From positions 1 through 44,154 of the IMG/VR virus record IMGVR_UViG_3300007735_000738: 44,154 nt of DNA, one strand, 5' to 3'. Shown here one piece after another: positions 271 to 40,843 of the stretch; the stretch's first letter is position 1; the number at the start of each line of letters is the position of its first letter. This stretch comes from a virus. Position numbers and translations under genes: made by a program. The notes below the pieces were generated by a model. That model had not been told where the DNA came from. It made no database searches and saw only the letters and a list, made by a program, of their open reading frames with translations.

Positions 271-3200
271 CTCGCACCCGAACTGCAGGCACCTAATCCG
301 GACGCACAGGCATACGAAGACGAACTGGTCAACGAAGCCCTGAGCGCAGGAACCAAGGTACCACAGCGTACGGTAGAACGGATTCGTAAAGATCTTAAAG
401 GGACTGGATGGTACCCCGGTCAGTATCAAGCAGAGATCCGCAAACTTCGTGAACGCATCAAAGCTCGTCTAGAGACAGCACCTGCACCGTCACCCGCTGC
501 TGCAACGGCACCGACAACGATTGCAGCACTTCCCGCCGAACAGGAAACATTGGTTCAAGAGAGCCTGCAAAAAGGCGGCGTACCGTCTACGGCCACAATC
601 AAAAGCAGACTTAAAGATGCGGGGACAGAACAGCACCAAGCGGTACGTAAGGAAAGTATACGTAGGTTGGCTACAAACTATGGCGTGGAATACTCCGATA
701 CCTTGGACATGGTTAAGGACTTCGAGAAGAAAGATTCTTTGCCAGTGCGTCTTGTGCCGTCTGCTGAAGAAGGCGTAAGCACTGTCGAACCAGTTTTCGT
801 CAATAACCCCGATGTCACGGCACGTCAACTAGACAAGGGATACTCTCTTACTGTACCCGAAAATATGCGTAGTCGTGTGGCTCCGGGTATCACTTTCGAT
901 CAGAATACTGGACAGGTCACTTCGGCCCAGTCTCGCGGGTTCACAGTACAAAAACTGGGAGAACTGGCGAAACAGGTTCGTGATTCAAGGGTTAAGGTGG
1001 AGGGGTACGCCGACATCAACTCGGAAGCGGACATGGCTAAAGTACGGGCGGGGGTGCAGAAACTCAGCGCGAACAAAGATTTTAAGCCAACTTTACTTGG
1101 GGTCGTTAAGCGATTGGCCGAGTTTAATACCGACCTGCCAGTAACTGATAAGAGTATACTGGAGACAAAAGCTTTGTCTATCTGGGTAGACGGGCAACTC
1201 CGGAATAAACCCGTTGACCCAGCAACGGCTTGGAAATTTGCCGAGAGGAAGCTGGCTCCCAAATTAGCGGTGCGTGTACAGGAAGAGTCCATGCAGGCTG
1301 CATATACTGAGGGCGGTAAAACTTTGGAGGATGTACTGCCGTCAGAGGAACCTACGCAAGACGAACTCGATACCGAAGCCGAACAAGAGGCTGCTGTTGC
1401 TGCGGCTGCTGCGGAGACGGGTGAAGTCTACAAGCCAGAAGCCGAAACAGGGAAGGTTACGACAGCGGCACGCGCAAGTCGTATATCGTATGATCGGGCG
1501 AAGGCTCTCGTGGACAACCCGAAACCTCCAGCAAATCTGGGTAAAGCTGCTAAAGCCCAGTTTGCTCAGTTTTTGCAGGAAGCAAAAGATCTCCTTGAAT
1601 TTACCAAGGATATCCGTGCGCAACTCCTTAAGGATGGTATCAGTGCCAAGGAATACGGAACGTGGACATACGATGACTTCGCCAACGTGGATGTCGGCAA
1701 TACTGGCGTGGTTCTAGAATCCAGCACCCGCGACGAAAGCCCTTATATCCGCGAGCAGATTGCGTGGCTTGATAATGTTGCCAGCCAGTTAGGTGTTCCG
1801 GATGCAGGGTTCTTCACACCCGAACAATTTACTGCGATAGCGAAATACTACGCGGATAAGTACCGTTCCTACTTTGATTCGGGTAACGTAATGTTGCCAG
1901 TGGATTCCGTAGTTACGGACACGGAAAATTTACAAAAGTTGTTCGAAGCTGGTGTCGGACAAGCCAGCGTTTACCGAGCCAAGTTGCAGGAACTCCAAGA
2001 AAACTATCCCGGAATACGTAAGATAGTCTACTCCACAAAGAGACTGGCGACAGCTTGGTATGATCCAAAGTATCCCGGCATGGTGTTCTTCAACCCCGTG
2101 CAATTGGAGCGCGAGATTGCTGGGCTAACTGATTCCGAGGCTTTCCCGATCCTGCGTGCTGTGATGGATGAGGAGTACGATCACTATGTTACTATTGGAG
2201 TTATTTCTCCTCAACAAGCTGCCAGCATAGTAGAGGGACTTAGCGATACTACACTGAATAAGGTGTTAGATGAATATGTTCCCGTAGATAATTTTGAAAC
2301 TCCTGCGGATAGACAGGCAGTTATAGATGAGTTGATGCGCAATCCCGACTCTATTGGTTACGAGTATTTACGGATGATTCGTCAGCGCATGAAAAGCGGT
2401 CTCACTACAGAAGATCTTACCAACAATATACCACAAAGCGTTAAAGATAAAATTTTCCAAATGCTGCGTGCATTGATTGCTAAACTAAAAACTAGACTCC
2501 TCGTATATAAAGATCCGGTGCTGGCGCATACAGTTAAGGCCATTCAACACGGGTATAGGGTGATGGAGATCCGCGAGGAGATTCGTAAATTATCTCCGGA
2601 AGATCAAGAGGCCCTTTATGATGATCCAAAATTATATAGGCAATTATTTACAAAACCATCGCAGGGTATCTTTGGACCTAAGAAAGCTGCCGTAGATAAT
2701 GTAAAAGAAGCTCAAAAAATAAAAATTGGGACTAACTATTGGGTAAAATCTGATGGATCGGTAATAGATATCTATGAAGAAGTTATGGGTAGAATATCCC
2801 CGGATGATGAATCTTTTAGTGCTACGCACGGAGGTTATGTAAAACAATGGATAACTGATAGACTAAAAGGATTTTGGCCTGACGCTAACGAAGTTACTAT
2901 TGCTACAGATATGCGCAATACTGTAAGGCGTTTAATGAATGAGGATGTTTCCCTGCAAGAAAGTGTTAGCGATGAAGAAGCGGATATCTTGTATACTGAA
3001 GAAGCAGACCTTGCGGAAGCTATGGGGCAAGAACCTCCAGATAGAGATGCTTTCATAGCTGAACTTAAAAATAAAAATCGTCAAGCATCTCCGATAACTT
3101 ACGTTCAAGCCGCGCAAGAAGCTGGTTGGGCTCGTGTATCTAGCGTTCCACACATGGTAAAAAGGCGTGTGGCTAAGTCTGGTGGCGAAGTATTCAAAAA

Positions 3201-6200
3201 TATAGTGTCTGAATACGTAGAATCTAAACTGGGGACTGGGGCGAGGAAAACTTTGGATGAAGTTGGTAGAGTCAATAAATTACAAAATGTACCTTCTGGT
3301 GCTCTTAGGTTAGAAGTTAAAGAATTTCCAACCAATATTCGCATATTCAGAGATCTACCCGACCAAGACCCATGGACTACTTTTTATGCATTGCCCGGAA
3401 AGCGCACAAGGGGGACGCGCACATCCAATAAAGTTTTCCGTAAAGGCGGTGTATTTTCCTCTGGACTCTTCACTCCGAAGCAGAGGGATATCATTCTTGC
3501 GGGTAAGAGCGAGGTAGCAGCGGCGAACAACGAATTTAAATTTACCCTTGAGGCCTTAGATAGGGCTGTGAAGAAAGCGTATGGCAATAAGCCTCCGACT
3601 GACGTTATTAATAGAGTTCTCGGATCCACGGAGAATCCGCTCACGGATACGCAGGTTCAAGATCTCAGGGACTATGCAAAGACATTAAGAGCAAGCAAGC
3701 TAAGCAATGATGAGATAAACGAGAAAGTTTCCGCTCGTAAAGCAGTATTCCGTAATGACAACCAAAATGCTCAGAGGACACAGATTGCAGCAGACCTAGC
3801 TACCTTGGATCCGAAGGTAGCGCAGACCATCACGGCCATGCGTCAAAAATTGGATGCGCTTTCCACCAAGATGATCGAGGGTGGCTACATCGCCCAAGAA
3901 CTGATTCCGGTATTTGAGGGCAACATGGAGTTGTACCTACATCGTAATTACGCAATCTATAACGACCCCATCTGGAAAGAATACATGACCAACCCGCAGA
4001 CAGCGGAGCATATGAAGATCCGGACGGAATTCGAAAAACTGGCTACCGATCGTGCCGTGGCTGAAAAGATAGCCGACCTTCGTCGTGAGTCGCGCAAGAT
4101 TGATCCGACAAAGGTAATCTCCGTGGCCGATGCCAAGAAAGAAGTTCAAAACAATCATGCGGATTGGGTGGCTCGTCGCGTAGACGAAATCACCACGGAC
4201 TTCCTTAACGTAGCGGACGAGGATAGCTACAAGTTTTTCGTCAACGGTACATCTATACCCGGAAAACGTAGTTTGAATATCCTCAAGGTCAGGGGACAGT
4301 TGCCTAAAGAAGTCAGGGACTTCTGGGGCGAGGAGAAAGACATCAAGCTGAACTTTGCCCACGCCGCAGGGAAGATGGCATCCTTTATTTCGGCTACGGA
4401 TACTGCCAGAAATTTGCTCGATAATGGTATTAGCGAAGGATTTATCTGGAAAAAGAACTACGACAACCGTGTGGTATTCAATGGGAAAACACGGAAGTAC
4501 GATGTGATCCTTGGCGATGTCCGTAAAGAAGGCTTCAATACGGAGGCAGAGGCTGAGACTTGGAGACAGGCTGAGTATCCCGCAGCGGCGTCTAAACTCA
4601 TGTCCTCCGTGCATCCAAAGGGTTGGGTTCCTCTGATCAAGAAAGGAACGAATCCCCAGAGCATCGCACCCTTGGACGGAGCCTACGGACCTCCGGAATT
4701 GAGAGATGCCTTGAATCAGGCGTTCAATCCACAGGCAACGGCTGGCTGGGCCAACTGGTTTAGTGCGCTATCTCTCGCCGCCATGTCGGCTAAAACAATT
4801 GGATATATACCACGCTCCGTGGTCCGCAACTTCTTGGGTAACCCATTGATCGTCCTTTCCAAGGGCATGTTTAATTTGGGCGATCCTATGTCCATGGTCA
4901 AATCCATGGCCGATGGTTTTAAAGTAGCTGGCCTCAATGTTGGGTTGCGCGGAGAGAAGTTGCTTAAGGTACAACCTCTATTGCAGAAATTGGTTCGCCT
5001 AGGAGTAGTTGGGGATACCCTCAGCGGAGGGCTTTTGAAAAAACTCTACGAAGATAACAATGAGATTCCGATCATCAAAGCTCTTTACTCTGACACACCT
5101 TACGACAGCAAACTGAAAAACCTTGGTGCTAGTGTCGCCAAGAAAATTGGAACTGCCTATAGCAAGGCAGCAGATATCTATCAGGGTGTCGATGATATCT
5201 GGAAAGTGTATGCTTGGCAGCAGGAACGCATGAACCAAGCTAAAGCCAACCCCGGCATGACTGATGAACAGCTTGATGAAGCTGCTGCTTATGTGGTGCG
5301 CAATACACTGCCAACATACAGCTTGTCTCCCCAGATAACTAAAGAGCTACGCAGGATTCCGGTTCTGGCACCGTTCATTACTTGGACGAGCGAAGTTCTT
5401 CGCACCACCAGCAATGGTATATCGATAGCCAACTCCGAGATCAAAGAGGGTTTGGCTACCAAAAATAAGGCAATGTATGCCAATGGTATATCTCGTTGGG
5501 CAGGACTGATTGGTGCACTGGGTATTATACCTGTTGCAGCAGCCGTATCGAAGGCTGTTTTTGGTAATACCGATGACGATGACGAGGCTGTACGTAATCT
5601 TGTACGTGACTGGCAGAAGAACTCGGAGATCATGCTTTTGGACAAACCAAAAGACGGGAAGGTGAAGTACGTTGATCTTAGCTATCTTGACCCGTTCCAA
5701 GTATTCAAGGAGCCCGTGATCGCCGCTATGCGAGGATTTAACTCTGGGGATGACCTCATGAAAGTAGCATACGATACTGGGCGCGAGGCTCTTCGTCCCG
5801 TGCTGTCGGAACAGCTTTTATTCGGAGCCGTACTGGATGCAATGCGAAACCAGACAGCGGATGGTATGCGGATCACCAATCCGCAAGATACTATAACCAA
5901 GCAGACTTACGACAAGATCATGCACGTGACATCTATCCTTACCCCCGGAGTACTGGCCGATACCATCCCCAATATTATGAAAGGGGCAGAGGGCAAGATC
6001 TCTAGTTCTGGAAAAGTGTATAGCCTCAGTAATGAAGTATACAGTGCTCTGCTTGGTCAGAAGATCAGCGAGATGGACGCACAGACTAGCCTTCGCCAAA
6101 AGATGGGTGCTTACAAGCGCGGCAATATGGACGCTACCAGTCTATTTACGAATACGCTTCTTAACCGTGGAACTATTGAGCCGGGGGATGTTGTCTATGC

Positions 6201-6498
6201 ATACGAGAATGCAAATAGGGCCAAGCAGGATCTCTTCAATGAAATGAAGAAAGCCTTCGATAGTGCCGTGCAACTGGGTGTGCCCAAGCAACAAGCGGCA
6301 GCGATCCTCATGGGCCAAGGAACTGGGGAAGGACTGAGCAAAGATATCGTTAGAGAAGTTATCAGTGGGCAGTACGTACCGTACATGCCCTCCAATATTA
6401 CCCTAGAACGTGTTGTCACTAGGCCGAATGGCAATGAGCGTATCGCTGAATTACGTAAGTACTTAATTGAAAAGCAGCGTAACAAGGGTGGGCAGTAG
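1..6498 (+). CDS. Giant polyvalent virion-associated protein, 5' end outside the window
   Basis: The frame is open from base 1, so the visible 2,165 residues are the C-terminal part of a larger protein. It opens with a Pro/Ala/Thr repeat (residues 1-90), followed by helical charged segments. Near residues 700-730 there is a stretch resembling the peptidase-like domain of large polyvalent phage proteins, but the expected HExxH reads EEYDH (724-728). Around residues 1765-1810, motifs such as RNTLPTYSLSP and RRIPVLAPF match my memory of the LPD38-type domain of such proteins. A hydrophobic segment follows near 1833-1855. Proteins of this type are thought to be packaged in the head and ejected with the DNA. 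The stretch about 2620-3360 is visibly AT-richer than its flanks. The gene is followed at once by a small membrane peptide and a zinc-ribbon gene. The role is inferred from architecture, not from a catalytic motif. Confidence 0.88.
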   Translation, partial: APAVPATPAAPAPTEVTPTPAPAEVTPTPTAPAVTATPAAPAPTEVTPTPTAPAVAATPPAPTEVTPAPKPTEVAPTPTAPAVTATAPAPLAPELQAPNPDAQAYEDELVNEALSAGTKVPQRTVERIRKDLKGTGWYPGQYQAEIRKLRERIKARLETAPAPSPAAATAPTTIAALPAEQETLVQESLQKGGVPSTATIKSRLKDAGTEQHQAVRKESIRRLATNYGVEYSDTLDMVKDFEKKDSLPVRLVPSAEEGVSTVEPVFVNNPDVTARQLDKGYSLTVPENMRSRVAPGITFDQNTGQVTSAQSRGFTVQKLGELAKQVRDSRVKVEGYADINSEADMAKVRAGVQKLSANKDFKPTLLGVVKRLAEFNTDLPVTDKSILETKALSIWVDGQLRNKPVDPATAWKFAERKLAPKLAVRVQEESMQAAYTEGGKTLEDVLPSEEPTQDELDTEAEQEAAVAAAAAETGEVYKPEAETGKVTTAARASRISYDRAKALVDNPKPPANLGKAAKAQFAQFLQEAKDLLEFTKDIRAQLLKDGISAKEYGTWTYDDFANVDVGNTGVVLESSTRDESPYIREQIAWLDNVASQLGVPDAGFFTPEQFTAIAKYYADKYRSYFDSGNVMLPVDSVVTDTENLQKLFEAGVGQASVYRAKLQELQENYPGIRKIVYSTKRLATAWYDPKYPGMVFFNPVQLEREIAGLTDSEAFPILRAVMDEEYDHYVTIGVISPQQAASIVEGLSDTTLNKVLDEYVPVDNFETPADRQAVIDELMRNPDSIGYEYLRMIRQRMKSGLTTEDLTNNIPQSVKDKIFQMLRALIAKLKTRLLVYKDPVLAHTVKAIQHGYRVMEIREEIRKLSPEDQEALYDDPKLYRQLFTKPSQGIFGPKKAAVDNVKEAQKIKIGTNYWVKSDGSVIDIYEEVMGRISPDDESFSATHGGYVKQWITDRLKGFWPDANEVTIATDMRNTVRRLMNEDVSLQESVSDEEADILYTEEADLAEAMGQEPPDRDAFIAELKNKNRQASPITYVQAAQEAGWARVSSVPHMVKRRVAKSGGEVFKNIVSEYVESKLGTGARKTLDEVGRVNKLQNVPSGALRLEVKEFPTNIRIFRDLPDQDPWTTFYALPGKRTRGTRTSNKVFRKGGVFSSGLFTPKQRDIILAGKSEVAAANNEFKFTLEALDRAVKKAYGNKPPTDVINRVLGSTENPLTDTQVQDLRDYAKTLRASKLSNDEINEKVSARKAVFRNDNQNAQRTQIAADLATLDPKVAQTITAMRQKLDALSTKMIEGGYIAQELIPVFEGNMELYLHRNYAIYNDPIWKEYMTNPQTAEHMKIRTEFEKLATDRAVAEKIADLRRESRKIDPTKVISVADAKKEVQNNHADWVARRVDEITTDFLNVADEDSYKFFVNGTSIPGKRSLNILKVRGQLPKEVRDFWGEEKDIKLNFAHAAGKMASFISATDTARNLLDNGISEGFIWKKNYDNRVVFNGKTRKYDVILGDVRKEGFNTEAEAETWRQAEYPAAASKLMSSVHPKGWVPLIKKGTNPQSIAPLDGAYGPPELRDALNQAFNPQATAGWANWFSALSLAAMSAKTIGYIPRSVVRNFLGNPLIVLSKGMFNLGDPMSMVKSMADGFKVAGLNVGLRGEKLLKVQPLLQKLVRLGVVGDTLSGGLLKKLYEDNNEIPIIKALYSDTPYDSKLKNLGASVAKKIGTAYSKAADIYQGVDDIWKVYAWQQERMNQAKANPGMTDEQLDEAAAYVVRNTLPTYSLSPQITKELRRIPVLAPFITWTSEVLRTTSNGISIANSEIKEGLATKNKAMYANGISRWAGLIGALGIIPVAAAVSKAVFGNTDDDDEAVRNLVRDWQKNSEIMLLDKPKDGKVKYVDLSYLDPFQVFKEPVIAAMRGFNSGDDLMKVAYDTGREALRPVLSEQLLFGAVLDAMRNQTADGMRITNPQDTITKQTYDKIMHVTSILTPGVLADTIPNIMKGAEGKISSSGKVYSLSNEVYSALLGQKISEMDAQTSLRQKMGAYKRGNMDATSLFTNTLLNRGTIEPGDVVYAYENANRAKQDLFNEMKKAFDSAVQLGVPKQQAAAILMGQGTGEGLSKDIVREVISGQYVPYMPSNITLERVVTRPNGNERIAELRKYLIEKQRNKGGQ

Positions 6499-7387: not shown

Positions 7388-7613
7388 GTATGCTGAAATC
7401 GGGTTGGTAGTTACGCATTAGTGAGTCGTAGATTTTTCCTTTGGGTGCGGTGACCCTACGGACAGTATCTACAAAGTTTACCCAAGACATCTCAAATGGG
7501 GCGTTCCATTCTTCCACGGACGGAAAGTTCCAAGGGTAGGGGCGCGGAGGGTACGAAGATACGCACCCGCATAGTGCTGCCGCTAGGATCGCTCCTTGAA
7601 TTCGTAGAACCAT
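7332..7613 (-). CDS. Putative phage lipoprotein
   Basis: From ATG 7613 the protein begins MVLRIQGAILAAALCGCVSS, a short basic start, a hydrophobic core and an L-C-G-C lipobox, so a type II signal peptide with lipidation on Cys17 is likely. The mature part is Pro- and Trp-rich at its start (YPPRPYPWNF). A longer in-frame start exists at 7640 (MGERKRRRP), also with weak ribosome binding bases. I prefer 7613 because it gives a standard signal peptide length. A Pro-rich lipoprotein near phage accessory genes could be an outer spanin, but no inner spanin is evident. It overlaps both neighbours. Confidence 0.6.
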   Translation of the reverse strand: MVLRIQGAILAAALCGCVSSYPPRPYPWNFPSVEEWNAPFEMSWVNFVDTVRRVTAPKGKIYDSLMRNYQPDFSIHELQTHRTTKTSGPNQRP

Positions 7614-22023: not shown

Positions 22024-22533
22024 ATGGCTCAAAGGACCAAGGTTGCCAAGGAGACTTGGCTGGCAATAAAGACGTGTTATCTGGCTGGAATGTCGACGAA
22101 TGACATTGCTGCAAAGTTCGAGATGAACAGGAACACGATCAGCATAAAGGCGTGGAAAATGGGCTGGAATAAACTTCGCCGCCTTCCAGACAGCGTTCCT
22201 ACTGACAAAGCATTAGTAGAGAAGGTTGCCGACATGCTAGAAACAGATTGGAAAACTAAAGGCTCGGCACACAGGCGATTGGTGTTTGAGAAGGCGAATT
22301 CCGCGCTGCGGGAAGCCAACCTTCCAGCCCCGAGGACGTGGAAAGATGCCCAGATTGCCGACAGCATGGCACGAAAGGCTGCGGGACTCGAAGATGCCGA
22401 GAACACGAAGAGCACGATCGTGAATGTCGGTTGGCTGCAGCAGACTGCAGGAGGTGCCGTGACTAGGTTGGACATTGAATCCGATATCGTCGACGCAGAA
22501 GTGGTCGAGGATGCCGAGATTCTGTCAGACTAG
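22024..22533 (+). CDS. HTH protein, possible small terminase subunit
   Basis: From ATG 22024 (CAGGGG 5 bases upstream) this 169-residue protein has an N-terminal helix-turn-helix (YLAGMSTNDIAAKFEMNRNT, about residues 19-38), a helical middle and an acidic tail (DAEVVEDAEILSD). DNA-binding head, helical core and acidic tail fit small terminase subunits, and its orientation agrees with the large terminase. However, the two genes are 16.5 kb apart, so a transcription regulator is the alternative. It is the only rightward gene among leftward ones here. A TTGACT hexamer at 21985 could be part of its promoter. Confidence 0.6.
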   Translation: MAQRTKVAKETWLAIKTCYLAGMSTNDIAAKFEMNRNTISIKAWKMGWNKLRRLPDSVPTDKALVEKVADMLETDWKTKGSAHRRLVFEKANSALREANLPAPRTWKDAQIADSMARKAAGLEDAENTKSTIVNVGWLQQTAGGAVTRLDIESDIVDAEVVEDAEILSD

Positions 22534-22891: not shown

Positions 22892-23287
22892 TTAGGCCAA
22901 GGCGAGGGCGGCAGAGGCCACCTGCTGCGCTTGGCGGCGATTGATCTCCGCGATCAGAGCTTCCGTGGTCATCTTCGAGACATCTACGTTCTTGCGCTCG
23001 GCCTTGGTGGGCGCGGCGAGGGTCTGGTGGATGCGACCGCTGGAGGTCATGACCTGCTTCACGATCGTGTAGCCTTGGCGCAAGGCTTCGTTCTGGTTCG
23101 CGATCGCGACACCCTGCATGGCGCGGATCTTGGCGTTCGCGGCCTTGCGGAGTTCGCCCTTGGACATGTTGGGGTTGGCCTTGGCGATTTCGCGCTTAAG
23201 CAGGGCGATGCTGAATCCGTCGATCTTCTCCCCTTGGGAGAGAGGGCTGACGATTGCGGTTTCGTTACGGGTGATGATTTCGTTCAT
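22892..23287 (-). CDS. Hypothetical helical protein, 131 residues
   Basis: From ATG 23287 (AGGA 11 bases upstream) the protein begins MNEIITRNETAIVSPLSQGE and continues with SKGELRKAANAKIRAMQGVA and a Gln/Ala-rich C-terminal helix. Its start is preceded by a 140-base leader full of small palindromes (23377-23413, 23460-23495). It is the first leftward gene left of the origin region, a position where a regulatory or replication-control protein would be natural, but no HTH or other motif is seen. The longer frame to 23419 would include those palindromes and is not preferred. Confidence 0.66.
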   Translation of the reverse strand: MNEIITRNETAIVSPLSQGEKIDGFSIALLKREIAKANPNMSKGELRKAANAKIRAMQGVAIANQNEALRQGYTIVKQVMTSSGRIHQTLAAPTKAERKNVDVSKMTTEALIAEINRRQAQQVASAALALA

Positions 23288-23376
23288 TGTATCTGATTTC
23301 CTAATGTTGTTGAGGTCGGTTTCAACATCCTCGAAGAGGGTGCTGAAGTGACCCCACGCAACCGAGAATCCGTGAA

Positions 23377-23413
23377 CCTTCAACGAAGGCTCATGCGTGA
23401 CCTGCAACGCAGG
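23377..23413. promoter_or_regulatory. Two AAC-centred palindromes, possible operators
   Basis: CCTTC-AAC-GAAGG (23377-23389) and CCTGC-AAC-GCAGG (23401-23413) are perfect 5-bp-arm palindromes with the same AAC centre, 24 bases apart centre to centre. They lie upstream of the gene at 22892-23287. Paired sites with constant spacing suit a dimeric repressor, or paired hairpins in the leader RNA. Confidence 0.42.
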
Positions 23414-23459
23414 GCGCATTGGTTCCCGAGAGCATGGGAATCAGTCCTTTTTTGTGTAG

Positions 23460-24085: not shown

Positions 24086-24232
24086 ATGTGGTATACACTA
24101 CAGTCGGGTATCGTCTATGGACCCTACGGAGGGGTCGGATTCATACAGAGGGACGATCTGAAGCATGTCGCAGTCACATGCCTCGGACTGTTCCGCTGGA
24201 TCCGGAACCTTTGGTCCAAGGAACCCATGTAA
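24086..24232 (+). CDS. 48-residue orphan protein beside the origin
   Basis: ATG 24086 follows a near-perfect ribosome binding site (AAAGGAGGTGAT). The product is MWYTLQSGIVYGPYGGVGFI, then QRDDLKHVAVTCLGLFRWIR and a short tail NLWSKEPM. It is aromatic and slightly basic with no known motif. It has its own strong promoter (24028-24055) and a terminator-like hairpin after the stop (24244-24274), so it is an independent monocistron on the strand opposite its neighbours. A regulatory role in lysogeny or replication is an inference from position only. A GTG two bases downstream opens another frame that I consider less protein-like. Confidence 0.66.
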   Translation: MWYTLQSGIVYGPYGGVGFIQRDDLKHVAVTCLGLFRWIRNLWSKEPM

Positions 24233-24563: not shown

Positions 24564-24962
24564 GGGTAGGGGAGGAAAAAGTCACCCCTACCCACCTACA
24601 GAGAAAGGGTAGGGGTGAAAACTCCGAAAAATTCCACCCCTACCCAAGTTAAGTGCTTGATTTTCAACATACTTACAAGGCGTGGGTAGGGGATGTAGGG
24701 CTTTTTTAAATTGATTGAAGAAAAAGTATATATATATGTATCGCCGGAATCCCCTCGGGCCGAAAAACCGCCGCAAAACCCCACGGTTTTGAAAAAAAGC
24801 CCTACATCCCCTACCCAATCGGGGTTAACCCCTTGGGCTACAGAGACTTACGCAAAAAGTTTCACCCCTACCCTCACCCCTACCCACCCCTACCCATTTC
24901 CCATAAACCCTTGATCCTAGGATACTTACAACAATGATTTCACCCCTACCCATCTCCTACCC
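24564..24962. repeat. Iteron array CCCCTACCC, probable replication origin
   Basis: The 9-mer CCCCTACCC or its complement GGGTAGGGG occurs ten times exactly: plus-strand C-form at 24585, 24637, 24808, 24865, 24877, 24887 and 24943, and G-form at 24564, 24607 and 24684. One imperfect copy is at 24954. Most C-form copies extend to CACCCCTACCC. The three at 24865-24895 are 12 and 10 bases apart, about one helical turn. The array surrounds an inverted repeat and a TA tract, and lies 2 kb from the primase-helicase gene. This is the standard layout of an initiator-bound origin, though the initiator itself is not identified. Confidence 0.78.
24683..24817. repeat. Perfect 25-bp inverted repeat around a TA-rich tract
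   Basis: The arms at 24683-24707 and 24793-24817 are exact reverse complements over 25 bases; each holds an iteron core (24684-24692, 24808-24816), ATGTAGGGC or its complement, and six T or A. The 85-base spacer contains TATATATATATG (24727-24738) and a 7-bp hairpin CAAAACC/GGTTTTG (24774-24791). A 12-bp perfect palindrome GGGGTTAACCCC follows at 24821-24832 and a 10-bp one, ATCCTAGGAT, at 24914-24923. I read the spacer as the DNA unwinding element. Confidence 0.8.
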
Positions 24963-25130: not shown

Positions 25131-25562
25131 TTAGTAAAGTTTACCGCCGTCATACAAGCCCATTTCGGTGGCAGTCTTGAGCCTCTTGAGGCCCGTCTTG
25201 GAGTCGGTGGTGTACCAGTTGTCCGGTTGGGTATACCCTGCGGAATTTTTAACGCGGCCCTTTTCGTCCACCGTGTATCCGGGTGGCAGCATTTTGGCGG
25301 CACCCCGATCCTTTGATTTACTCTTACCGGATTCTTTTGATTTGGATTTACCTCTGCCCTCTACTTCCGCCATGTACTCTTCTTCGTCCGAAAGAACACT
25401 GCTGCCCGGACCCCAACGCTCGGACTCTCTGTATGCGTCCGTATACGCCCAACCGCTCTGGGGCCTGTCCCCTTCGTAGTTGCTCCACGATCTCTGGGTC
25501 GTGTTGACTCCGGGATTTGCCCTACGCCGCTCGGCACTATCGTTGCTGTAATTCGAAGCCAT
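25131..25562 (-). CDS. Hypothetical polar protein, 143 residues
   Basis: The protein is very polar: the first half is rich in Ser, Asn, Tyr and Arg (MASNYSNDSAERRRANPGVN), the middle is a Lys/Ser low-complexity tract (RGKSKSKESGKSKSKDRG, about residues 70-87), and the end has PPGYTVDEKGRVKNSAGYTQ. It looks partly disordered. It is the last gene of a leftward cluster of five small genes that ends at the origin region. The leader before its ATG contains AGATAGAACTTAACC, related to the leaders of two neighbours. Confidence 0.68.
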   Translation of the reverse strand: MASNYSNDSAERRRANPGVNTTQRSWSNYEGDRPQSGWAYTDAYRESERWGPGSSVLSDEEEYMAEVEGRGKSKSKESGKSKSKDRGAAKMLPPGYTVDEKGRVKNSAGYTQPDNWYTTDSKTGLKRLKTATEMGLYDGGKLY

Positions 25563-25607
25563 GGTTAAGTTCTATCTGGCACCCTGTTACATCGAGTAAC
25601 CGGAGGC

Positions 25608-25811
25608 TTAACGATAAGGATCAACCTGATTTGCCGCGTACGAAGGTTTAAGCAGGCCGCTATCTACGTAACTTCTGAATTTTTTTCTCGCGTCTGCTAG
25701 AGACGTTTGACGATTTATTATGTCCATTTCTTCTTCCTCTTTTTGCTTACGCTTAGCATTCGCTTCCGCTTGAACTTCTTCCGGGTTCTTCAATATTTTT
25801 AGCATTGCCAT
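25608..25811 (-). CDS. 67-residue charged protein with the NRxTSL motif
   Basis: From ATG 25811 the protein starts MAMLKILKNPEEVQAEANAK, then has a Lys/Glu-rich coil and MDIINRQTSLADARKKF, a motif shared with two adjacent genes. The tail is SGLLKPSYAANQVDPYR. I chose this start because the preceding bases are an almost exact copy of the leader of the next upstream gene. The frame continues to 25883, overlapping that gene, but is not needed. Function unknown. Confidence 0.66.
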   Translation of the reverse strand: MAMLKILKNPEEVQAEANAKRKQKEEEEMDIINRQTSLADARKKFRSYVDSGLLKPSYAANQVDPYR

Positions 25812-25834
25812 ATATTTATAGTTCTTTCTAGTTA
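25812..25834 (-). repeat. Duplicated gene leader, copy 1
   Basis: On the leftward strand the bases just before ATG 25811 read TAACTAGAAAGAACTATAAATAT (spelled here in two parts: TAACTAGAAAGAACT and ATAAATAT). The copy at 26236-26258 differs at one base. It lacks a Shine-Dalgarno sequence, so the repeat may be an AT-rich translation start element. Confidence 0.6.
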
Positions 25835-25839
25835 GTAGT

Positions 25840-26235
25840 TTATCTTTGTCTATAGTACGAATTAAGCAGTTTAGCAGAGTCATCAGATCCCATTGACCCC
25901 ATTCTGTTTCTACCCGCGTTTTTCTGCTCGAATTTTATTTTAGTATCGTCAAGTTCCATCCGTGCTTTCAACACATCGGCTTCTTCCCGCATCTTTTGTG
26001 CCGGGGAGATCGTTGGGGCGGTGCCACTACGCATAGCAGCTCTAATTTCAGATGGTATAGTCGGCTTCGGCTGAAATGTTGCCGATGTGGGAGATGGGTT
26101 AAGCGTACTCGCTTCCCCCTGCATTTTCATTAAATTATTCTTGGCCTGCAGTAAAGCGGATTCCCGATTAACGTTGGCGAGTTCTCGTTCCTGCCATAGA
26201 GCCTTCAACGACTTTGATGTTGAGTCTAGTCTCAT
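25840..26235 (-). CDS. 131-residue charged protein with the NRxSAL motif
   Basis: The helical N-terminus (MRLDSTSKSLKALWQERELA) leads into NVNRESALLQAKNNL, the motif shared with both neighbours. A Pro/Thr/Ser-rich linker follows (PSPTSATFQPKPTIPSE), then a second charged helix (MREEADVLKARMELDDTK) and a polar tail. It is probably an elongated, partly disordered protein. Its leader (26236-26258) duplicates that of the next gene. Confidence 0.68.
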   Translation of the reverse strand: MRLDSTSKSLKALWQERELANVNRESALLQAKNNLMKMQGEASTLNPSPTSATFQPKPTIPSEIRAAMRSGTAPTISPAQKMREEADVLKARMELDDTKIKFEQKNAGRNRMGSMGSDDSAKLLNSYYRQR

Positions 26236-26258
26236 ATATTTATAGTTCTCTCTAGTTA
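26236..26258 (-). repeat. Duplicated gene leader, copy 2
   Basis: This leader before ATG 26235 reads TAACTAGAGAGAACT then ATAAATAT on the leftward strand, matching the copy at 25812-25834 at 22 of 23 positions. Its left part overlaps the last codons of the gene at 26256. Confidence 0.6.
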
Positions 26259-26594
26259 AGAAGGTCTCTTACCAACCCCACTATAAACACTGGGGGCTTT
26301 CCCACTATTGACAAGTTCGTACTCTCTCCTGTTCGCTTCTTCCCACGCTTGCTGCGCTTGTTTAAGGGCAGTCTTCCTATTCAGCTTAGCAATTTCTTCC
26401 TCTTCGTCCGCTCGTTTTTTCTCCTCATCCGCCTTAATTTTGGCGTTAATAATATCTCTCCCACTCGATCCGTACGAAATTTTGTTACTCCTCCGTACAA
26501 AACCGTCTTCCTTCGACTGCGGTGTTTTTCTTACCCAGTCATTCTTTTCAGAATCCCAGACATATGTTCCGTAACCTTGACTTCCTATTGGCAT
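26256..26594 (-). CDS. 112-residue charged protein with the NRxTAL motif
   Basis: The protein starts with an aromatic, Gly-rich stretch (MPIGSQGYGTYVWDSEKNDW), then a long charged coil (KADEEKKRADEEEEIAKLNR) that runs into NRKTALKQAQQAWEE, the motif shared by the two downstream genes. The leader is AT-rich (TTAAAAATATT) without a Shine-Dalgarno sequence. No family recognised. Confidence 0.68.
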   Translation of the reverse strand: MPIGSQGYGTYVWDSEKNDWVRKTPQSKEDGFVRRSNKISYGSSGRDIINAKIKADEEKKRADEEEEIAKLNRKTALKQAQQAWEEANRREYELVNSGKAPSVYSGVGKRPS

Positions 26595-26606
26595 AATATT
26601 TTTAAT

Positions 26607-26849
26607 TTAAAAATTCAAATACTGAATTCCTTGCAACAATTCTTCTTTCTTAGCTTTAGCTCTTTGGGACACTGTTTGATTCGGGGAATCTAGTTCTCCC
26701 GATCTCTCCAAAGCATCCAACTCAGCCTGCATCTCAGCGCGTTTCTTACGCCTCTCCGCGTCTGCTTCGGGAGTATCAACTGTGATATCTTTTGCCCCGT
26801 AACCAGCCGGGTCTTTGAACTGTTGTAGCGATTGATTTAGGTAAGACAT
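26607..26849 (-). CDS. 80-residue charged protein, first of the small-gene cluster
   Basis: This product begins MSYLNQSLQQFKDPAGYGAK and has an acidic-basic coil (EADAERRKKRAEMQAELDAL). It resembles its neighbours in composition but lacks the NRxTxL motif. It follows the structured terminator (26881-26968) by about 30 bases, so it would be expressed by read-through or from a separate promoter in that gap. Confidence 0.66.
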   Translation of the reverse strand: MSYLNQSLQQFKDPAGYGAKDITVDTPEADAERRKKRAEMQAELDALERSGELDSPNQTVSQRAKAKKEELLQGIQYLNF

Positions 26850-26973: not shown

Positions 26974-29127
26974 TTATTTTTTCTTGATAAAGGTTTCTTC
27001 GACTGCAATTACATACCAAGTTTTACCATGGTGGGATACATGACGCAAGACCCTACTTGATGGACGGTTTGAGAGCATGCGCAGTTCGCGGCCAAGTCTG
27101 ACGGGTGTGTACCGCGACAGCAACGGCTTGAGCATGCCCTCGTCGATCCCCATGACGCTGGAGAACAGGTCGGTTGCGGTGCCCTTCCACTCCTTCTTGG
27201 CCTTATCGTCCCGGCGCATGCTGCTGGCCCACCGATCTAGGATCTCCTCAAGCTTGGTAGCTGCGGAGTCCTCGTTCGCTGATTCGATCATCCTTGGGTG
27301 GTGGTAGGGACGAACCCCGAACCTTGGATTCTCTGACCACAGGACGTGGGCTTGCGGTGAATAATCGAGCAACCACCGCAAGAAGTGCGGCAATTCCCGC
27401 TTGATGATCTCCTCGTTCTCTTTGTTGGAGGAAAACTTGTGCTGGTACGGTTGGAACTGAAACAACATTATCTTATCGAGGATGTTGTTGTCCAAGGTCG
27501 GCAGCACCGACAACGAGTGCGCGTCAGTGTTCAGAGTCAGACACATGCATCCAGTCCACGGCAACTCTGTAGCATCCTTGAACTTCGGATGGTAGATCAC
27601 CGTGGGGTTGGCCACGTGCGACTTCAGTGACTCCGAGAACTGGCGGTGCTTGTCGGGGTCGATCGCTGACTGCGGATCGTCCACCACCCAGTGCGGGTGT
27701 TCGGCCACCGTCTTGTTGAAGCTGGTCTTACCCTGCAGATATGGTGCTGCGTCAGCCCATCCGCCGAGGCTGTCACCCATTATCTTGCGGTTAAACAGTG
27801 TTTTACCCTGTCCCGCGTCACCAGCGATAACGATCAACTGGCTTTGGACTGGCTCAAATTCTAGGGCAGCTTTGTACTTCCGCTTCCAGTAGGCCAGCCA
27901 ATACGGGAGTTGCTCATCCCCGAAACACGTCCAGATCCATTCGCGAATCCACTTCCAGTTTGCCTCGTCGCCGTTTTCTGCGGGAGCGATGGCCGTCCGG
28001 TAGTTGATATTGAGGATCCTTGTGTTGCCGATGTCAACGATCTCGCGCTTGTCGAACAGGATAGGCGCGGCTGCGTCCACCCTCCGCTGGGTTTCGATCG
28101 CGTGAAGTACTCGATCCATCTGGGACGCGCCCTTCTTGGATTCGGTCTTGATCCCATGAACCCTGAGACTTCGGGCCACGTTCTCCACTTTCGCATCGTA
28201 CCAGCGATTGTGTCCGTTTTTAAACCAGTAGGCCTTGCCATCGTAAAAGTACTCCATGACGGCTTTGCCGATAACCTCTTGCCTGTACTGGTCTACGAAC
28301 TGTTTCCCAAGTAGGTCTCCCCACGTGAGGAACGACTTTCCTGCGCGATCCGTGTAGCAGATGATCCCAGCTTCGGCCACCTGACATCCGATGCGGGTAA
28401 TGCCGTCATTGAGCCAGAATGTCGGGCCACGGGCACCCACCACAAAGTCCCCCGGCCACGCTCCGGGCCAACGTGCCTCGACTTCGGCGGCGATCTTTTC
28501 GATCGGGATCTCAAGGTCGCTTCCCGCGACTTTATTCCAGTCCACCTTGCTGCTGGCCTTGACGATGAGATCCCCCATCACGTTGTCCGACACGCTGGGG
28601 TTGCCCTGTACGACAACCCATCCGTGGCCGAGTTCGAACAGCTGATTCAGTCGGAACGAGCACTCGTCGATCCCCGGAAGGACGCTGCCGAGTTTAAACT
28701 TCTTGGCTATCTCCTTCATCAGGTGCTTCGCCATGTCCGGACAGTCCACGAGCACCGGAGTGTCGAACTGCCAGACCACACGGGCGTTGCCGCTGAACGT
28801 GCGGCTGATCGCCGCTGGCATCGCGTCCACATCGCAACGCGAGAGGATATCCTGCATATTGAAGTTAGCCCCCAGCTTGGCATCGTAGTCGACAACCATG
28901 CCGTGCAGCCACTTCGCGGGGTTATCCAGCGAGATGCGTTTGTGCGGATTGACGCCTTCTGCTGCCGTGTAGAAGCAGTGGTCGGTTGCCTTATCGCGTA
29001 CCCACTTCTCGTAGTCATCCTTTGTGGCGACATTCGCGGGGTACCCCGATGACGTGGCGTTCCAGATGTCTATCGGCGTCTCCGTGACATCCGATACCGT
29101 GAGATTTTTTGCGTAGAATGTTTTCAT
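26974..29127 (-). CDS. Primase-helicase (D5/P4-type)
   Basis: The 717-residue protein has an N-terminal primase-like region with GMVVDYDAKL (about residues 75-84, a DxD-type catalytic pair) and a C-terminal SF3-like helicase with Walker A AGDAGQGKT (about 437-445), a Walker B-like WVVDDPQ, and an Asn sensor in CLTLNTDAHS. This is the layout of D5/P4-type phage replication proteins that unwind and prime at the origin. The iteron origin lies 2 kb downstream. The gene overlaps the upstream 74-residue gene as ATGA and ends at the pseudoknot terminator. Confidence 0.9.
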   Translation of the reverse strand: MKTFYAKNLTVSDVTETPIDIWNATSSGYPANVATKDDYEKWVRDKATDHCFYTAAEGVNPHKRISLDNPAKWLHGMVVDYDAKLGANFNMQDILSRCDVDAMPAAISRTFSGNARVVWQFDTPVLVDCPDMAKHLMKEIAKKFKLGSVLPGIDECSFRLNQLFELGHGWVVVQGNPSVSDNVMGDLIVKASSKVDWNKVAGSDLEIPIEKIAAEVEARWPGAWPGDFVVGARGPTFWLNDGITRIGCQVAEAGIICYTDRAGKSFLTWGDLLGKQFVDQYRQEVIGKAVMEYFYDGKAYWFKNGHNRWYDAKVENVARSLRVHGIKTESKKGASQMDRVLHAIETQRRVDAAAPILFDKREIVDIGNTRILNINYRTAIAPAENGDEANWKWIREWIWTCFGDEQLPYWLAYWKRKYKAALEFEPVQSQLIVIAGDAGQGKTLFNRKIMGDSLGGWADAAPYLQGKTSFNKTVAEHPHWVVDDPQSAIDPDKHRQFSESLKSHVANPTVIYHPKFKDATELPWTGCMCLTLNTDAHSLSVLPTLDNNILDKIMLFQFQPYQHKFSSNKENEEIIKRELPHFLRWLLDYSPQAHVLWSENPRFGVRPYHHPRMIESANEDSAATKLEEILDRWASSMRRDDKAKKEWKGTATDLFSSVMGIDEGMLKPLLSRYTPVRLGRELRMLSNRPSSRVLRHVSHHGKTWYVIAVEETFIKKK

Positions 29128-29354: not shown

Positions 29355-29693
29355 TTATTTCCACTCACCCCTGTGGCACAGGAGCCCGATGATTCCGTAG
29401 TTCGTAACGTCTAGCCACGTATCGGAGACTTTCTCGTGCTCCGGTGACTTGTCGTTCCAGACGAGCGTCTTGAGTCGTTCGATCTTGTCGTTGAGCCTGA
29501 CAATCACGCCCTTCTCACCAAAGGCCGAGATGTTTCCGGGACCGTAGTCTTTGTTTTTGCGGTCGAGGAGGATCGCCGCCTCGCAGAGAGACTTGAAGCA
29601 CTCTAGGCCGAGTTTAGTTTCAATACCAAGCTGGCTGGCCATCTGGTCTAGGTTTGGTTTCTCCGGTTTTTTCGATTTGTTGTAGGTATACAT
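29355..29693 (-). CDS. Nmad1-like (DUF1599) nucleotide-metabolism protein
   Basis: The 112-residue protein contains LDRKNKDYGPGNISAFGEKG (split motif: KDYGPGN and FGEKG), VRLNDKIERLKTL and DTWLDVTNYGIIG. These are the hallmarks of the Nmad1/DUF1599 family, which has a MazG-like all-helical fold and is linked to modified or altered nucleotide metabolism in phages. The acidic D/E and Lys residues in these motifs would bind metal and phosphate. It lies between DNA polymerase and primase genes, fitting a role in dNTP supply. Confidence 0.85.
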   Translation of the reverse strand: MYTYNKSKKPEKPNLDQMASQLGIETKLGLECFKSLCEAAILLDRKNKDYGPGNISAFGEKGVIVRLNDKIERLKTLVWNDKSPEHEKVSDTWLDVTNYGIIGLLCHRGEWK

Positions 29694-29694
29694 A

Positions 29695-29895
29695 TTATTC
29701 GTTGGTTGCGTATGGTGTTTCGTAGTTTATGGCCCACTCCACCGAATCAGGGTCGTAGTCCCTCCATTCGAAGTTGTGGAAATTCTCTGTGTTGTACTCC
29801 ATGTTTCGGACTGCCCACATGATGCGTGCGCCCATGCTTCTGTGGAAATGTACGTGGCAATCTGTTGGAGAAATTGAATCGGCTACCGCGATCAC
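29695..29895 (-). CDS. Hypothetical protein, 66 residues
   Basis: The frame starts at GTG 29895, which overlaps the stop of the polymerase gene (GTGA). The product has CHVHFHRSMGARIMWAV and an acidic aromatic tail (FEWRDYDPDSVEWAINYE). An internal ATG at residue 21 is a possible shorter start. It packs tightly before the Nmad1-like gene. No family recognised. Confidence 0.6.
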   Translation of the reverse strand: MIAVADSISPTDCHVHFHRSMGARIMWAVRNMEYNTENFHNFEWRDYDPDSVEWAINYETPYATNE

Positions 29896-31646
29896 TTCTC
29901 GTACCTCCCAGTGATCTTGGTTTCACACGCCAGCGGCAGATTGCTCGCCCACTCTGGCGGCTTCCGCATGATGGCTTCGATTGTGTTCTTGGCCACGTCA
30001 GCCTCGCTGCTCTTGACGCAGCAGACCACTTCGTCGTGGACGCGCATGATAACAGGAATCCCTGCCTCGCGGATACGTTTGACCGCTGCCATAAAACAGT
30101 CTCTGGCCATCGCCTGAGTTAGGTTTTCAGCCAAAGAACCGCCCCACCACTTCATCCGGACGTATTTCCCGCCACGCACAATCTTCCCGCTCAGGTGTCC
30201 TTCGTTGTTATTTGGCTCCAAATAGGACAATTTCCTCCCGCTCGGTAACTCTATCTCGTACTTCTCGTCATTTCGCGTGACCGACATGCGGAGATTGTTC
30301 TCCAGCTTTTTCCACAGGGCCAGAACTTTCGGATTTTTCCTGCGGTACAGCGCGACCAACTCTCCCGCACGTGTTGGTTCTAGTCCTGTCACTTCGCAAA
30401 ACCGCTTGACCCCCATGCCGTAGCCGAGCCCCAAGTTGAGTTGTTTGACCAAGTGTCGGATTCCGGTCTTATCTTCACGCAGCGACTCCGGTTTATCCCA
30501 GAATCCCCAAGCACGGGCCTGCGCCTCGTATAAATCGGTGCTTTTGGCGATGAAATCCAACATATCTTGGTCACCCGCCAGCCATGAAAGACAACGCGGT
30601 TCGATCTGGGATAGGTCGGAAATGACCAGAGAATAGCCTTCTGGGGCTTGAATTAGGCCTCGAATGTCCACTCCGTAGCTCTCGGCACGTTGGAGATTTT
30701 GCATATTGAGCCCAGCATCCCCTGAGTCCCTGCCCGTGGTAGCTCCGAAGTATTTGAGCCCATAAGCCATCCAACCATCAGGACGTAGACGCTTGCGCAT
30801 TGTCTCTAGCTTCTTCAGCAGGATGTTACACTTGCGATACTGACGCATCGCCGCGACCCACGGGTACTTTTCCCCATGCTCTTTCTCCCAAGCCTCGCAC
30901 TCTGGGCTATCTTCAGCCAGAGAAGCTGGTGGAGTAATGCCAACTTTATGACATTCCTCCGCCAAAGCTATGGCCGAAAGGGTGGGGCGGTCATCTTCTA
31001 CCCACGGAAGTTTGATCCGTGCCTCCCACAGGAGCACCTTGAGGTGTTCGATGCGGTCGTTGATCATCGTCTTGTTGAGCGGAACGCCTTGTAGACACAT
31101 GCGCGTGGTCTCACGGGATAGCCAACGCTCCTGTTCAGACCACTTTTCCCCGTACTCTACCCACAGGCGAAGGCACAATTCGGCGTCTTTGATGGCGTAC
31201 TCCTCGACTTCCCTCTGGAATTCGGAGCCCATGTCTGACCACTTCTTACCCTTCATCTTGTTACGGGTATCTTTGGATACATCAACTTTGAGGAGTTCTG
31301 CCGAGGCATTTTTTAGGTTTCGCGGTGCTCCTAAGAAGGCGGCTAGGTCTGCTGTACACTCCCAGATAGCGGGAAAATGGTGGGGAACCCTGTCAGATTC
31401 GACCAAACTTTCGTATACAGGCTGGTCAAATGACCTATTATGGCTGACCCAACGCCAGTTATTGCCAGATATGGTCGACCAATCAAAATCTTCTGGGCGT
31501 CCGCAGTATTTGACCCCAGTTGTCGTGGCTATCGTCACTAGATAAGCCTCGAATTCGGGGTGGCGGCAGTAATGCCACACGCCCAGTGTTTCGACTCCTA
31601 CTTCTTCGTTGTAGAAAGTCTCAAAGTCTACGGCTGCAGTCTCCAT
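29892..31646 (-). CDS. Family A DNA polymerase with 3'-5' exonuclease domain
   Basis: The 584-residue protein has an exonuclease start VDFETFY (about residues 6-12) and the three polymerase motifs: A ISDLSQIEPR (about 342-351), B RHLVKQLNLGLGYG with the R-K-YG spacing (about 394-407), and C RVHDEVVC (about 533-540). This is a phage family A replicative polymerase of ordinary length. The ATG is preceded by a Shine-Dalgarno-poor leader (TTACACACA) directly after a 12-bp structured RNA element (31664-31773). Confidence 0.95.
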   Translation of the reverse strand: METAAVDFETFYNEEVGVETLGVWHYCRHPEFEAYLVTIATTTGVKYCGRPEDFDWSTISGNNWRWVSHNRSFDQPVYESLVESDRVPHHFPAIWECTADLAAFLGAPRNLKNASAELLKVDVSKDTRNKMKGKKWSDMGSEFQREVEEYAIKDAELCLRLWVEYGEKWSEQERWLSRETTRMCLQGVPLNKTMINDRIEHLKVLLWEARIKLPWVEDDRPTLSAIALAEECHKVGITPPASLAEDSPECEAWEKEHGEKYPWVAAMRQYRKCNILLKKLETMRKRLRPDGWMAYGLKYFGATTGRDSGDAGLNMQNLQRAESYGVDIRGLIQAPEGYSLVISDLSQIEPRCLSWLAGDQDMLDFIAKSTDLYEAQARAWGFWDKPESLREDKTGIRHLVKQLNLGLGYGMGVKRFCEVTGLEPTRAGELVALYRRKNPKVLALWKKLENNLRMSVTRNDEKYEIELPSGRKLSYLEPNNNEGHLSGKIVRGGKYVRMKWWGGSLAENLTQAMARDCFMAAVKRIREAGIPVIMRVHDEVVCCVKSSEADVAKNTIEAIMRKPPEWASNLPLACETKITGRYEK

Positions 31647-39029: not shown

Positions 39030-39094
39030 GTGTTTCGAGTTGTGTGCGCCGACTTTGAACTACTCGGTCGCGGCTGTCAAAAACTTTTTTGATC

Positions 39095-40843
39095 ATGGCC
39101 ACGAACAAAAAAACAGTCACTGTTTACGGACGGGAATTTCCCGAAGATATTACGCTGGTCACGCTGGAGTTGAGTTGTTTGAACGACCCACCTCCGCAGT
39201 CTCCGGGCAAACTTTTTCATTTCAAACGTGTAGTGGATTTGTTGTGGAACCACCCCGATTCGAAGATGCCAATCGAGTGGACTCCTTGGCTGGAGCGCAT
39301 GATTGAGGCTGCTTTCGAGCACAAGTATCTGGCCGTGGCTGGTTGCGCCAGTAGTGGGAAATCCCAAGCCTACGCTCTGTGGGCCATCGTCAACTTCCTC
39401 ATGAAGCCGTGGGCCACGCTCGTGATCGTCACCTCGACCAGTCTTAAGGAATCCAGAAAGCGTATCTGGGGCGCGATTACCGATCTTTGGCGTGCTGTTC
39501 CGGGGCTTCCGGGCAAGTTGGTCGACTCCGTTGGCATGATCCGCATGGACGATGGCACCGACACCAAATACGGCGATCGTTGCGGCATCGCTCTCGTAGC
39601 TGCAGAGCGTAAGAAAGAACGCGAAGCTGTCGGCAAGCTAGTCGGTATCAAGCAACAGCGTGTCATATTCATCGCTGACGAGTTGCCCGAACTAGGTGAA
39701 TCGATCCTCGAAGCTGCCTACACCAACTTGTCGAACAACCCCTACTTCCAGCTGATTGGCATCGGCAACCCTGCGAGCTACTACGACCCTTTTGGACAAT
39801 TCGCCACGCCCAAAGATGGATGGGGTTCCATCACCGTGGAGGATGAGGAGTGGGAAACGGAACGTGGGCACTGCCTGCACTTCGACGCCCACAAGTCCCC
39901 GAACATTATAGCTGGGCACGTCATGTACCCATGGATGATTACGCCATCTAACCTTGCGGAAAGCGCAAGCAAGCTGGGTGAGAATAGCCCCGGCTACTGG
40001 CGTATGTACCGTGGATTTTGGTGTCCTACGGGATCGGATAGCTCGATCTACAGCGAGTCGGATATCATCAAGTACGGAGCCGACCAGCGTGTGCAATGGA
40101 TCGACAAGCCCACGAAGGTGGCTGCTCTCGATCCTTCATTCAGTGCCAACGGTGACCGCAGTATTCTCTATTTTGGTTTTGTAGGGAAAGATACCACGGG
40201 GAGGCGTGTCATATGCCTAGATCACTACGAGGAGCTTCGGGAGGATGTCACAAATAAGGACGAGCCGAGAGCCTTTCAAATTGCCCGTCAGTTCAAGGAC
40301 AAGTGTGAGGCTTGGGGCGTCACTTCTCAAAACGCTGCGTATGATGCTAGTGGTGGCGGTGCGCCATTCGGAGACGTGGTAGATGCGATGTGGTCGCGGA
40401 ATGTCCTCCGGGTTCAGTTCGGCGGTAAGGCCAGTGAGAGGCCCGTTTCTCTTACAGATCGTATTCCGGGGCATGAGAGGTACGCTAACAGAGTCTCCGA
40501 ACTCTGGTGGACTGGTAAGGAATTAATACGTAATAAACAATTATTTGGTATCTCCAGAGAGTTAGTACGGGAAATGACGGAACGTCAATACACCACGGAA
40601 AAAGGTTTGAGCATGCGTATCCGCGTCGAAACAAAGTCGGACATGAAAGTCCGTATCGGCAAATCGCCAGATATTTCAGACGCAGCATTTATTTTGATTG
40701 AACTCTGCCGCACTCGGCATAACTTGACCGCCATCGACAAGATGCCGATCGACCCGTTCCAACCGGATAGCAGTTATAAAAAATGGTTTAAAAAGGTTGA
40801 TCTGGTTAGAAAGTCGGGTAAAAGAATCAATTACGGACACTAA
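39095..40843 (+). CDS. terL: Terminase large subunit
   Basis: The 583-residue protein has an ATPase domain with Walker A GCASSGKS (about residues 83-90) and Walker B VIFIADELPE (about 190-199), and an RNase H-like nuclease domain with AALDPSFSANGDRS (about 343-356), AAYDASGGG and PDISDAA. It cuts and pumps DNA into the capsid. I start at ATG 39095 (MATNKKTVTVYG); a TTG two codons earlier is also open. It is followed after 6 bases by the glycosyltransferase-like gene and then the portal gene. Confidence 0.95.
   Translation: MATNKKTVTVYGREFPEDITLVTLELSCLNDPPPQSPGKLFHFKRVVDLLWNHPDSKMPIEWTPWLERMIEAAFEHKYLAVAGCASSGKSQAYALWAIVNFLMKPWATLVIVTSTSLKESRKRIWGAITDLWRAVPGLPGKLVDSVGMIRMDDGTDTKYGDRCGIALVAAERKKEREAVGKLVGIKQQRVIFIADELPELGESILEAAYTNLSNNPYFQLIGIGNPASYYDPFGQFATPKDGWGSITVEDEEWETERGHCLHFDAHKSPNIIAGHVMYPWMITPSNLAESASKLGENSPGYWRMYRGFWCPTGSDSSIYSESDIIKYGADQRVQWIDKPTKVAALDPSFSANGDRSILYFGFVGKDTTGRRVICLDHYEELREDVTNKDEPRAFQIARQFKDKCEAWGVTSQNAAYDASGGGAPFGDVVDAMWSRNVLRVQFGGKASERPVSLTDRIPGHERYANRVSELWWTGKELIRNKQLFGISRELVREMTERQYTTEKGLSMRIRVETKSDMKVRIGKSPDISDAAFILIELCRTRHNLTAIDKMPIDPFQPDSSYKKWFKKVDLVRKSGKRINYGH

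Follow-up and report, generated by a model that had tools for sequence, protein, structure and literature searches.

An array of short repeats in the genome of an uncultured marine phage is probably the phage's bidirectional (theta) replication origin, because in known replicons with this architecture such a region serves as the origin. The array lies in a gene-free stretch of 400 bases and is a real, conserved element. As judged by comparison with known systems, it combines a PICI-type origin, in which two iteron sets surround an AT core, with a pRN1-like stem-loop. The DNA analyzed (44,154 nucleotides, called the window here) represents part of a phage genome whose full length is 66–71 kb. 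An earlier note on the window had proposed a phage origin served by the primase-helicase. This proposal is supported by an architecture that is conserved, by iterons and a proposed initiator that diverge together, and by a switch in strand asymmetry at the array, but cumulative GC skew has its maximum there and not its minimum.

Iteron copies and layout of the array

Ten exact copies of the 9-mer CCCCTACCC, in both orientations, are contained within 388 bp (24564–24951), in agreement with the earlier note. The whole window holds 11 exact copies, the eleventh being distant, at 7534, compared to an expectation of 0.23 (sd 0.49; maximum 2 over 100 shuffles). Short, near-identical noncoding repeats are therefore present far above chance, as in an iteron-type origin. 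The copies form two sets, and their orientations read - + - + - + + + + + in order of position. Set 1 (24564–24692) consists of five copies on alternating strands (24564-, 24585+, 24607-, 24637+, 24684-), and this order is the same in L009, L011, L012, L014, L017 and L030. Set 2 (24808–24962, + strand) consists of five exact copies, starting at 24808, 24865, 24877, 24887 and 24943, and one copy with a single mismatch, CTCCTACCC, at 24954–24962. This last copy explains why the note placed the end of the array at 24962, and it is intact in L030 as an 11th iteron. The claimed spacing of 10–12 bases between three of the copies was also borne out.

The nearest clear genes are at 25131–25562 (-) and, on the other side, a small ORF at 24086–24232 (+). 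No plausible ORF covers the array, so it was rejected as part of a gene and the claim of gene-free DNA stands. The small ORF encodes 48 aa, and its ribosome-binding site, AAGGAGGTGA, is strong. In a related contig (L013:12379, -), a small protein resembling it (GIVxGPYGxxGxxxR) is encoded antisense to the primase gene, in the interval that separates this gene from the array. An RNA element was rejected since no Rfam family reached the gathering score on the array. A G-quadruplex was rejected as the main constraint; tandem G runs could fold in this way, yet isolated copies and inverted pairs appear equally invariant. A text search of the literature for the iteron word returned incidental matches only.

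A stem-loop and AT-rich tract at the core

Between the two sets lies a structure absent from the earlier note, a 25-bp perfect inverted repeat (24683–24707 / 24793–24817) enclosing an 85-nt loop. The resulting stem-loop (24683–24817) folds as single-stranded DNA with a z of -7.6 compared to dinucleotide shuffles. The outer end of its stem is formed by the innermost iteron of each set. The loop contains the AT tract TATATATATA at ~24708–24742, which places the nearby AT tract that had been claimed; its richest 30-mer is 26/30 A/T and it is a likely DNA unwinding element. An AT-rich unwinding element adjoining the repeats is a further feature of iteron-type origins. The fold also predicts a small hairpin within the loop, CAAAACC GTGG GGTTTTG (24774–24791, -). 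Six representative loci have stem-loops of similar size, with 25–28 A/T in 30 in the AT-rich part of the loop. In three more distant relatives, L013, L031 and L032, the stem-loops have other stem sequences and z values of -4.4 to -4.9.

Conservation of the array and change of the iteron word

Besides the window, four distinct types carry the same array in identical order (L009 = L017, L011, L012 = L014, and L030). Relatives with the same word have ten copies, with the exception of L030, which has 11. Among the five distinct genomes, the iteron columns are invariant (90/90) compared to 163/309 of the other columns within the array. The array is always located 0.4–3 kb 3' of the primase-helicase gene, and each genome has one compact array. 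Five small non-conserved ORFs intervene between gene and array in the window; none do in L013 and L031.

L013, L031 and L032 encode primases 61–62% identical to that of the window and retain the array architecture, the two iteron sets facing each other across the loop. Their iteron word is different: CCCCACCC(C) in L013 and L031, and ACCCCACC in L032, in essentially every copy per genome. The window word differs from that of L013 by one T inserted between CCCC and ACCC. One concerted word per genome points to a trans-acting reader, and repeat homogenisation could have contributed to the change.

Most of what a scan of viral contigs for tandem copies returned was simple repeats in head-to-tail order with a 6-base period; among the contigs scanned, only those of this phage family had arrays built like this one. 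Further queries added no new family members, and no related primases were found in bacterial genome contigs. Cultured phages gave no match, either to the DNA of the region or to the primase-helicase protein. In an array-less relative (G016, the contig of L043), eight copies of CCGGTGCTGAT, mostly in 16-bp tandem, were observed at 57753–58216. They lie within or next to a 970-bp gap with few ORFs, which is close to that genome's own skew maximum and ~24 kb from its primase.

The primase-helicase as proposed initiator

The proposed initiator is a 717-aa primase-helicase (26974–29127, -) with a region predicted to be a primase of archaeo-eukaryotic type (AEP) with a DYD motif, an SF3-type helicase with a Walker A motif, and a predicted C-terminal winged helix. 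Its gene lies near the array, with the array on its 3' side, in all array-bearing contigs, as is expected of the initiator gene at an iteron-type origin. Pfam DUF5906 and the DYD motif are each present in 13/13 family members. For the structure model (mean pLDDT 72), the best match is the C-terminal region of the NrS-1 polymerase, followed by AsfvPrimPol, D5/E5 and the SaPI PriRep1 bound to dsDNA. Full-length AEP-helicase proteins are among the structural matches, the N-terminal model being of moderate confidence and the Pfam search giving no AEP match. The same search gave no Toprim match. Comparison of the sequence with PDB chains returned spurious matches only.

The predicted winged helix (residues 640–712; 26992–27210, -), with a predicted order of strand-helix-helix-helix-strand-strand, is the candidate iteron reader. 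This C-terminal domain is 89–92% identical among proteins from genomes with the same word, 51–56% identical where the word is another, and 15–24% identical in relatives that yielded no comparable array. In the array-less group the helicase domain is still 38–46% identical, the C-terminal domain dropping faster. At the level of sequence, the predicted winged helix diverges in step with the iteron word. The primase-helicase as putative iteron reader is somewhat less certain than the origin reading itself.

Genome context

Genes near the array encode a family A DNA polymerase (29892–31646, -; Pfam DNA_pol_A, E 1e-27), a helicase-nuclease, a RuvC-like resolvase and an integrase. The polymerase is probably the enzyme that elongates primers from the candidate origin, and the phage, judging from its integrase gene, is temperate. 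A small protein matching DUF1599, a nucleotide modification associated domain, is encoded at 29355–29693 (-). The large terminase is assigned to 39089–40843, with weak but consistent matches. A 1982-aa ORF at 550–6498 (+) matches a virion structural protein, and the largest ORF of the structural region in G006 is 9.6 kb. The 123-base direct repeats at the ends of G006 (66,488 bp) and G009 (70,180 bp) show these to be complete assemblies, either circular or circularly permuted. G010 and G012 are similarly long and lack such repeats.

Strand asymmetry around the array

In G006, G009, G010 and G012 the maximum of cumulative GC skew is ~0.6–1.5 kb away from the array; the window, too, has its maximum close to the array. 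The minimum, which the earlier note had expected here, lies elsewhere, at 0.50–0.52 of the circle, roughly opposite the array, in G006, G009 and G010, and at 0.31 in G012. In all four of these full-length array-bearing genomes the asymmetry switches at the array and fades with distance. At 4-fold sites in genes of both strands, the + strand (defined as the primase strand) is G-richer to the left of the array and C-richer to the right. Gene orientation is not the explanation, because genes on both strands show the same side shift. After removal of the gene-strand effect, the side effect has a z of -9.6 (three genomes pooled) and -8.1 (G012), values that overstate independence because the genomes share gene order and that gene-class effects could inflate. 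Its largest values fall less than ~15 kb from the array, and on the opposite side it is generally close to zero, one high bin in G012 excepted. In an unsupervised change-point scan, the switch at the skew maximum coincided with the array or fell close to it in three genomes, and was 2–5 kb away in G009. A second switch was inconsistent among genomes, and the array is thus the fixed point.

The sign of this switch is opposite to the bacterial convention, in which the maximum of cumulative GC skew marks the terminus, where forks converge. Here the strand that runs up to the array carries the excess of G (and T). A skew maximum instead of a minimum is the main evidence against the origin reading. 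ICP1, whose origin has been mapped by coverage (PMC7145576), served as a sign calibrator and showed the usual sign, weakly and confounded by gene orientation. Skew analysis of phage BPP-1 gave no clear replication effect. The more specific reading of an origin with a reversed strand signature, that is, a composite iteron and stem-loop origin read by an AEP-type primase-helicase, with less G and T on leading than on lagging strands, is put forward tentatively and is rather doubtful as a whole. If true, the reversed signature would imply that the fork or the mutational regime is unusual.

Alternative binders and functions of the array

Among the window proteins encoded near the array, only two were present throughout the array-bearing genomes checked: the primase-helicase and a 169-aa HTH protein (22024–22533, +). 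The HTH protein, which has only weak HTH and terminase matches and may be a terminase small subunit or a regulator, is missing from three array-less relatives that keep the primase. Because it is confined to array-bearing genomes, unlike the primase, its distribution makes it a serious alternative candidate for the iteron binder. It holds a highly conserved segment, PAPRTWKDAQIADSMARKAAGL, and the confidence of its predicted structure is low (50). Other proteins near the array, encoded in the range that the earlier note had named for binding tests, were rejected as binders: the small proteins of 25131–26849 are not conserved among array-bearing relatives, and the 175-aa protein of 22892–23419 is absent from three array-bearing genomes.

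The array could instead be an operator (for a repressor or for control of early genes), or a site for silencing or partition, and the HTH protein could be a regulator. Such a function would suit a temperate phage, and the array does lie between gene blocks, adjoining the conserved small ORF with its strong ribosome-binding site. However, operators would be expected to be many and scattered, and each genome has a single compact array; the region contains only one promoter-like site, a number not above that in shuffles. The AT core, stem-loop and skew switch would be left without explanation, and we consider a regulatory or partition function unlikely.

The HTH protein could also be the small terminase and the array its packaging recognition (pac-type) site, with replication starting elsewhere. 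Its presence in all array-bearing and 0/3 array-less genomes checked, its weak match to a terminase small subunit, and the failure to recognise a small terminase beside the large terminase all fit packaging, and a skew maximum would suit a terminal region of canonical sign. The HTH gene, however, is separated from the array by ~2 kb and is distant from the large terminase, whose own match is weak. An AT core and stem-loop are not expected of a packaging site, and linear contigs run across the array with one exception, L016, which breaks within the repeats. Packaging is, on this evidence, quite improbable as the function of the array. Least credible of all is that the array serves as a replication terminus or fork trap, with a distributed or unrecognised origin on the opposite side. 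This would give the skew its canonical sign, with G and T excess towards the array and a minimum roughly opposite in three genomes, but would leave the asymmetry strongest beside the array and near zero opposite, place iterons of both orientations round a melting-type core, and put the start among structural genes where a cluster scan found no such array.

Comparison with known replication origins

PICI origins have an AT-rich region between two iteron sets, 3' of pri/rep (PMC6092414), and the C-terminal domain of SaPI Rep recognises the origin directly downstream of its own gene (PMC7581432). The window resembles these in its proposed initiator helicase (sometimes fused to a primase), a candidate origin 3' of the gene, two iteron sets flanking the AT region and a C-terminal domain as candidate iteron reader, in addition to the model match to PriRep1. 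In contrast to PICI and SaPI origins, it has a G-tract 9-mer in both orientations and an AT core inside a 25-bp stem-loop. A PICI is an island without full virion genes, whereas this is a full tailed phage of 66–71 kb that encodes a large terminase, a virion structural protein and its own family A polymerase; hence it would work like a PICI without being one.

Satellite phage P4 uses bidirectional theta replication. Its alpha protein unites primase, helicase and an iteron-binding winged helix (described in PMC4234260), the combination proposed for the window protein. However, alpha has a Toprim-type primase, whereas the structural neighbours of the window protein are AEP-type primase-helicases. 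The P4 iteron word also differs from the window's, and no counterpart of its separate crr element was found in the window phage.

In pRN1, a stem-loop 3' of the AEP-SF3-winged-helix gene, with a 21-nt stem and a 58-nt loop, is needed for replication (PMC4234260). The systems of the pRN1 protein ORF904 and of phages BIP-1/BPP-1 combine AEP, SF3 helicase and winged helix, as predicted for the window protein, and their origin is a large stem-loop 3' of the gene, where the window has its own stem-loop. pRN1 has no iterons, in contrast to the window, where the stem is partly made of iterons and lies inside an iteron array. In Bordetella phage BPP-1 (L187, 26607–26710), the arms of a stem-loop 3' of the replication gene carry tandem TTGCCTCG, so BPP-1 may also combine iterons and stem-loop.

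The NrS-1 primase-polymerase starts sequence-specifically on an 8-nt site, and its tail fold is called novel, with no mention of a winged helix (PMC7102993). Its C-terminal region is the best structural match of the window protein, and it differs in that its own site has only two copies in the NrS-1 genome, located mid-genome.

Proposed mechanism and implications

With the array as origin, we infer that initiation would begin with binding of the iterons by the winged helix of the 717-aa protein. Two hexamers would assemble on the two iteron sets, and the SF3 motor would then open the AT core, possibly aided by cruciform extrusion of the stem-loop. The first primers would be made by the primase domain and extended both ways by the phage's family A polymerase.

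The same build in full-size marine phages, together with a pRN1-like stem-loop, would link the initiators of satellites, archaeal plasmids and phages. The three iteron words, with matching winged helices 51–92% identical, form a natural series in which the recognition code of the initiator is directly testable. If the array is the origin, its reversed skew warns against skew-based origin calls in phages.
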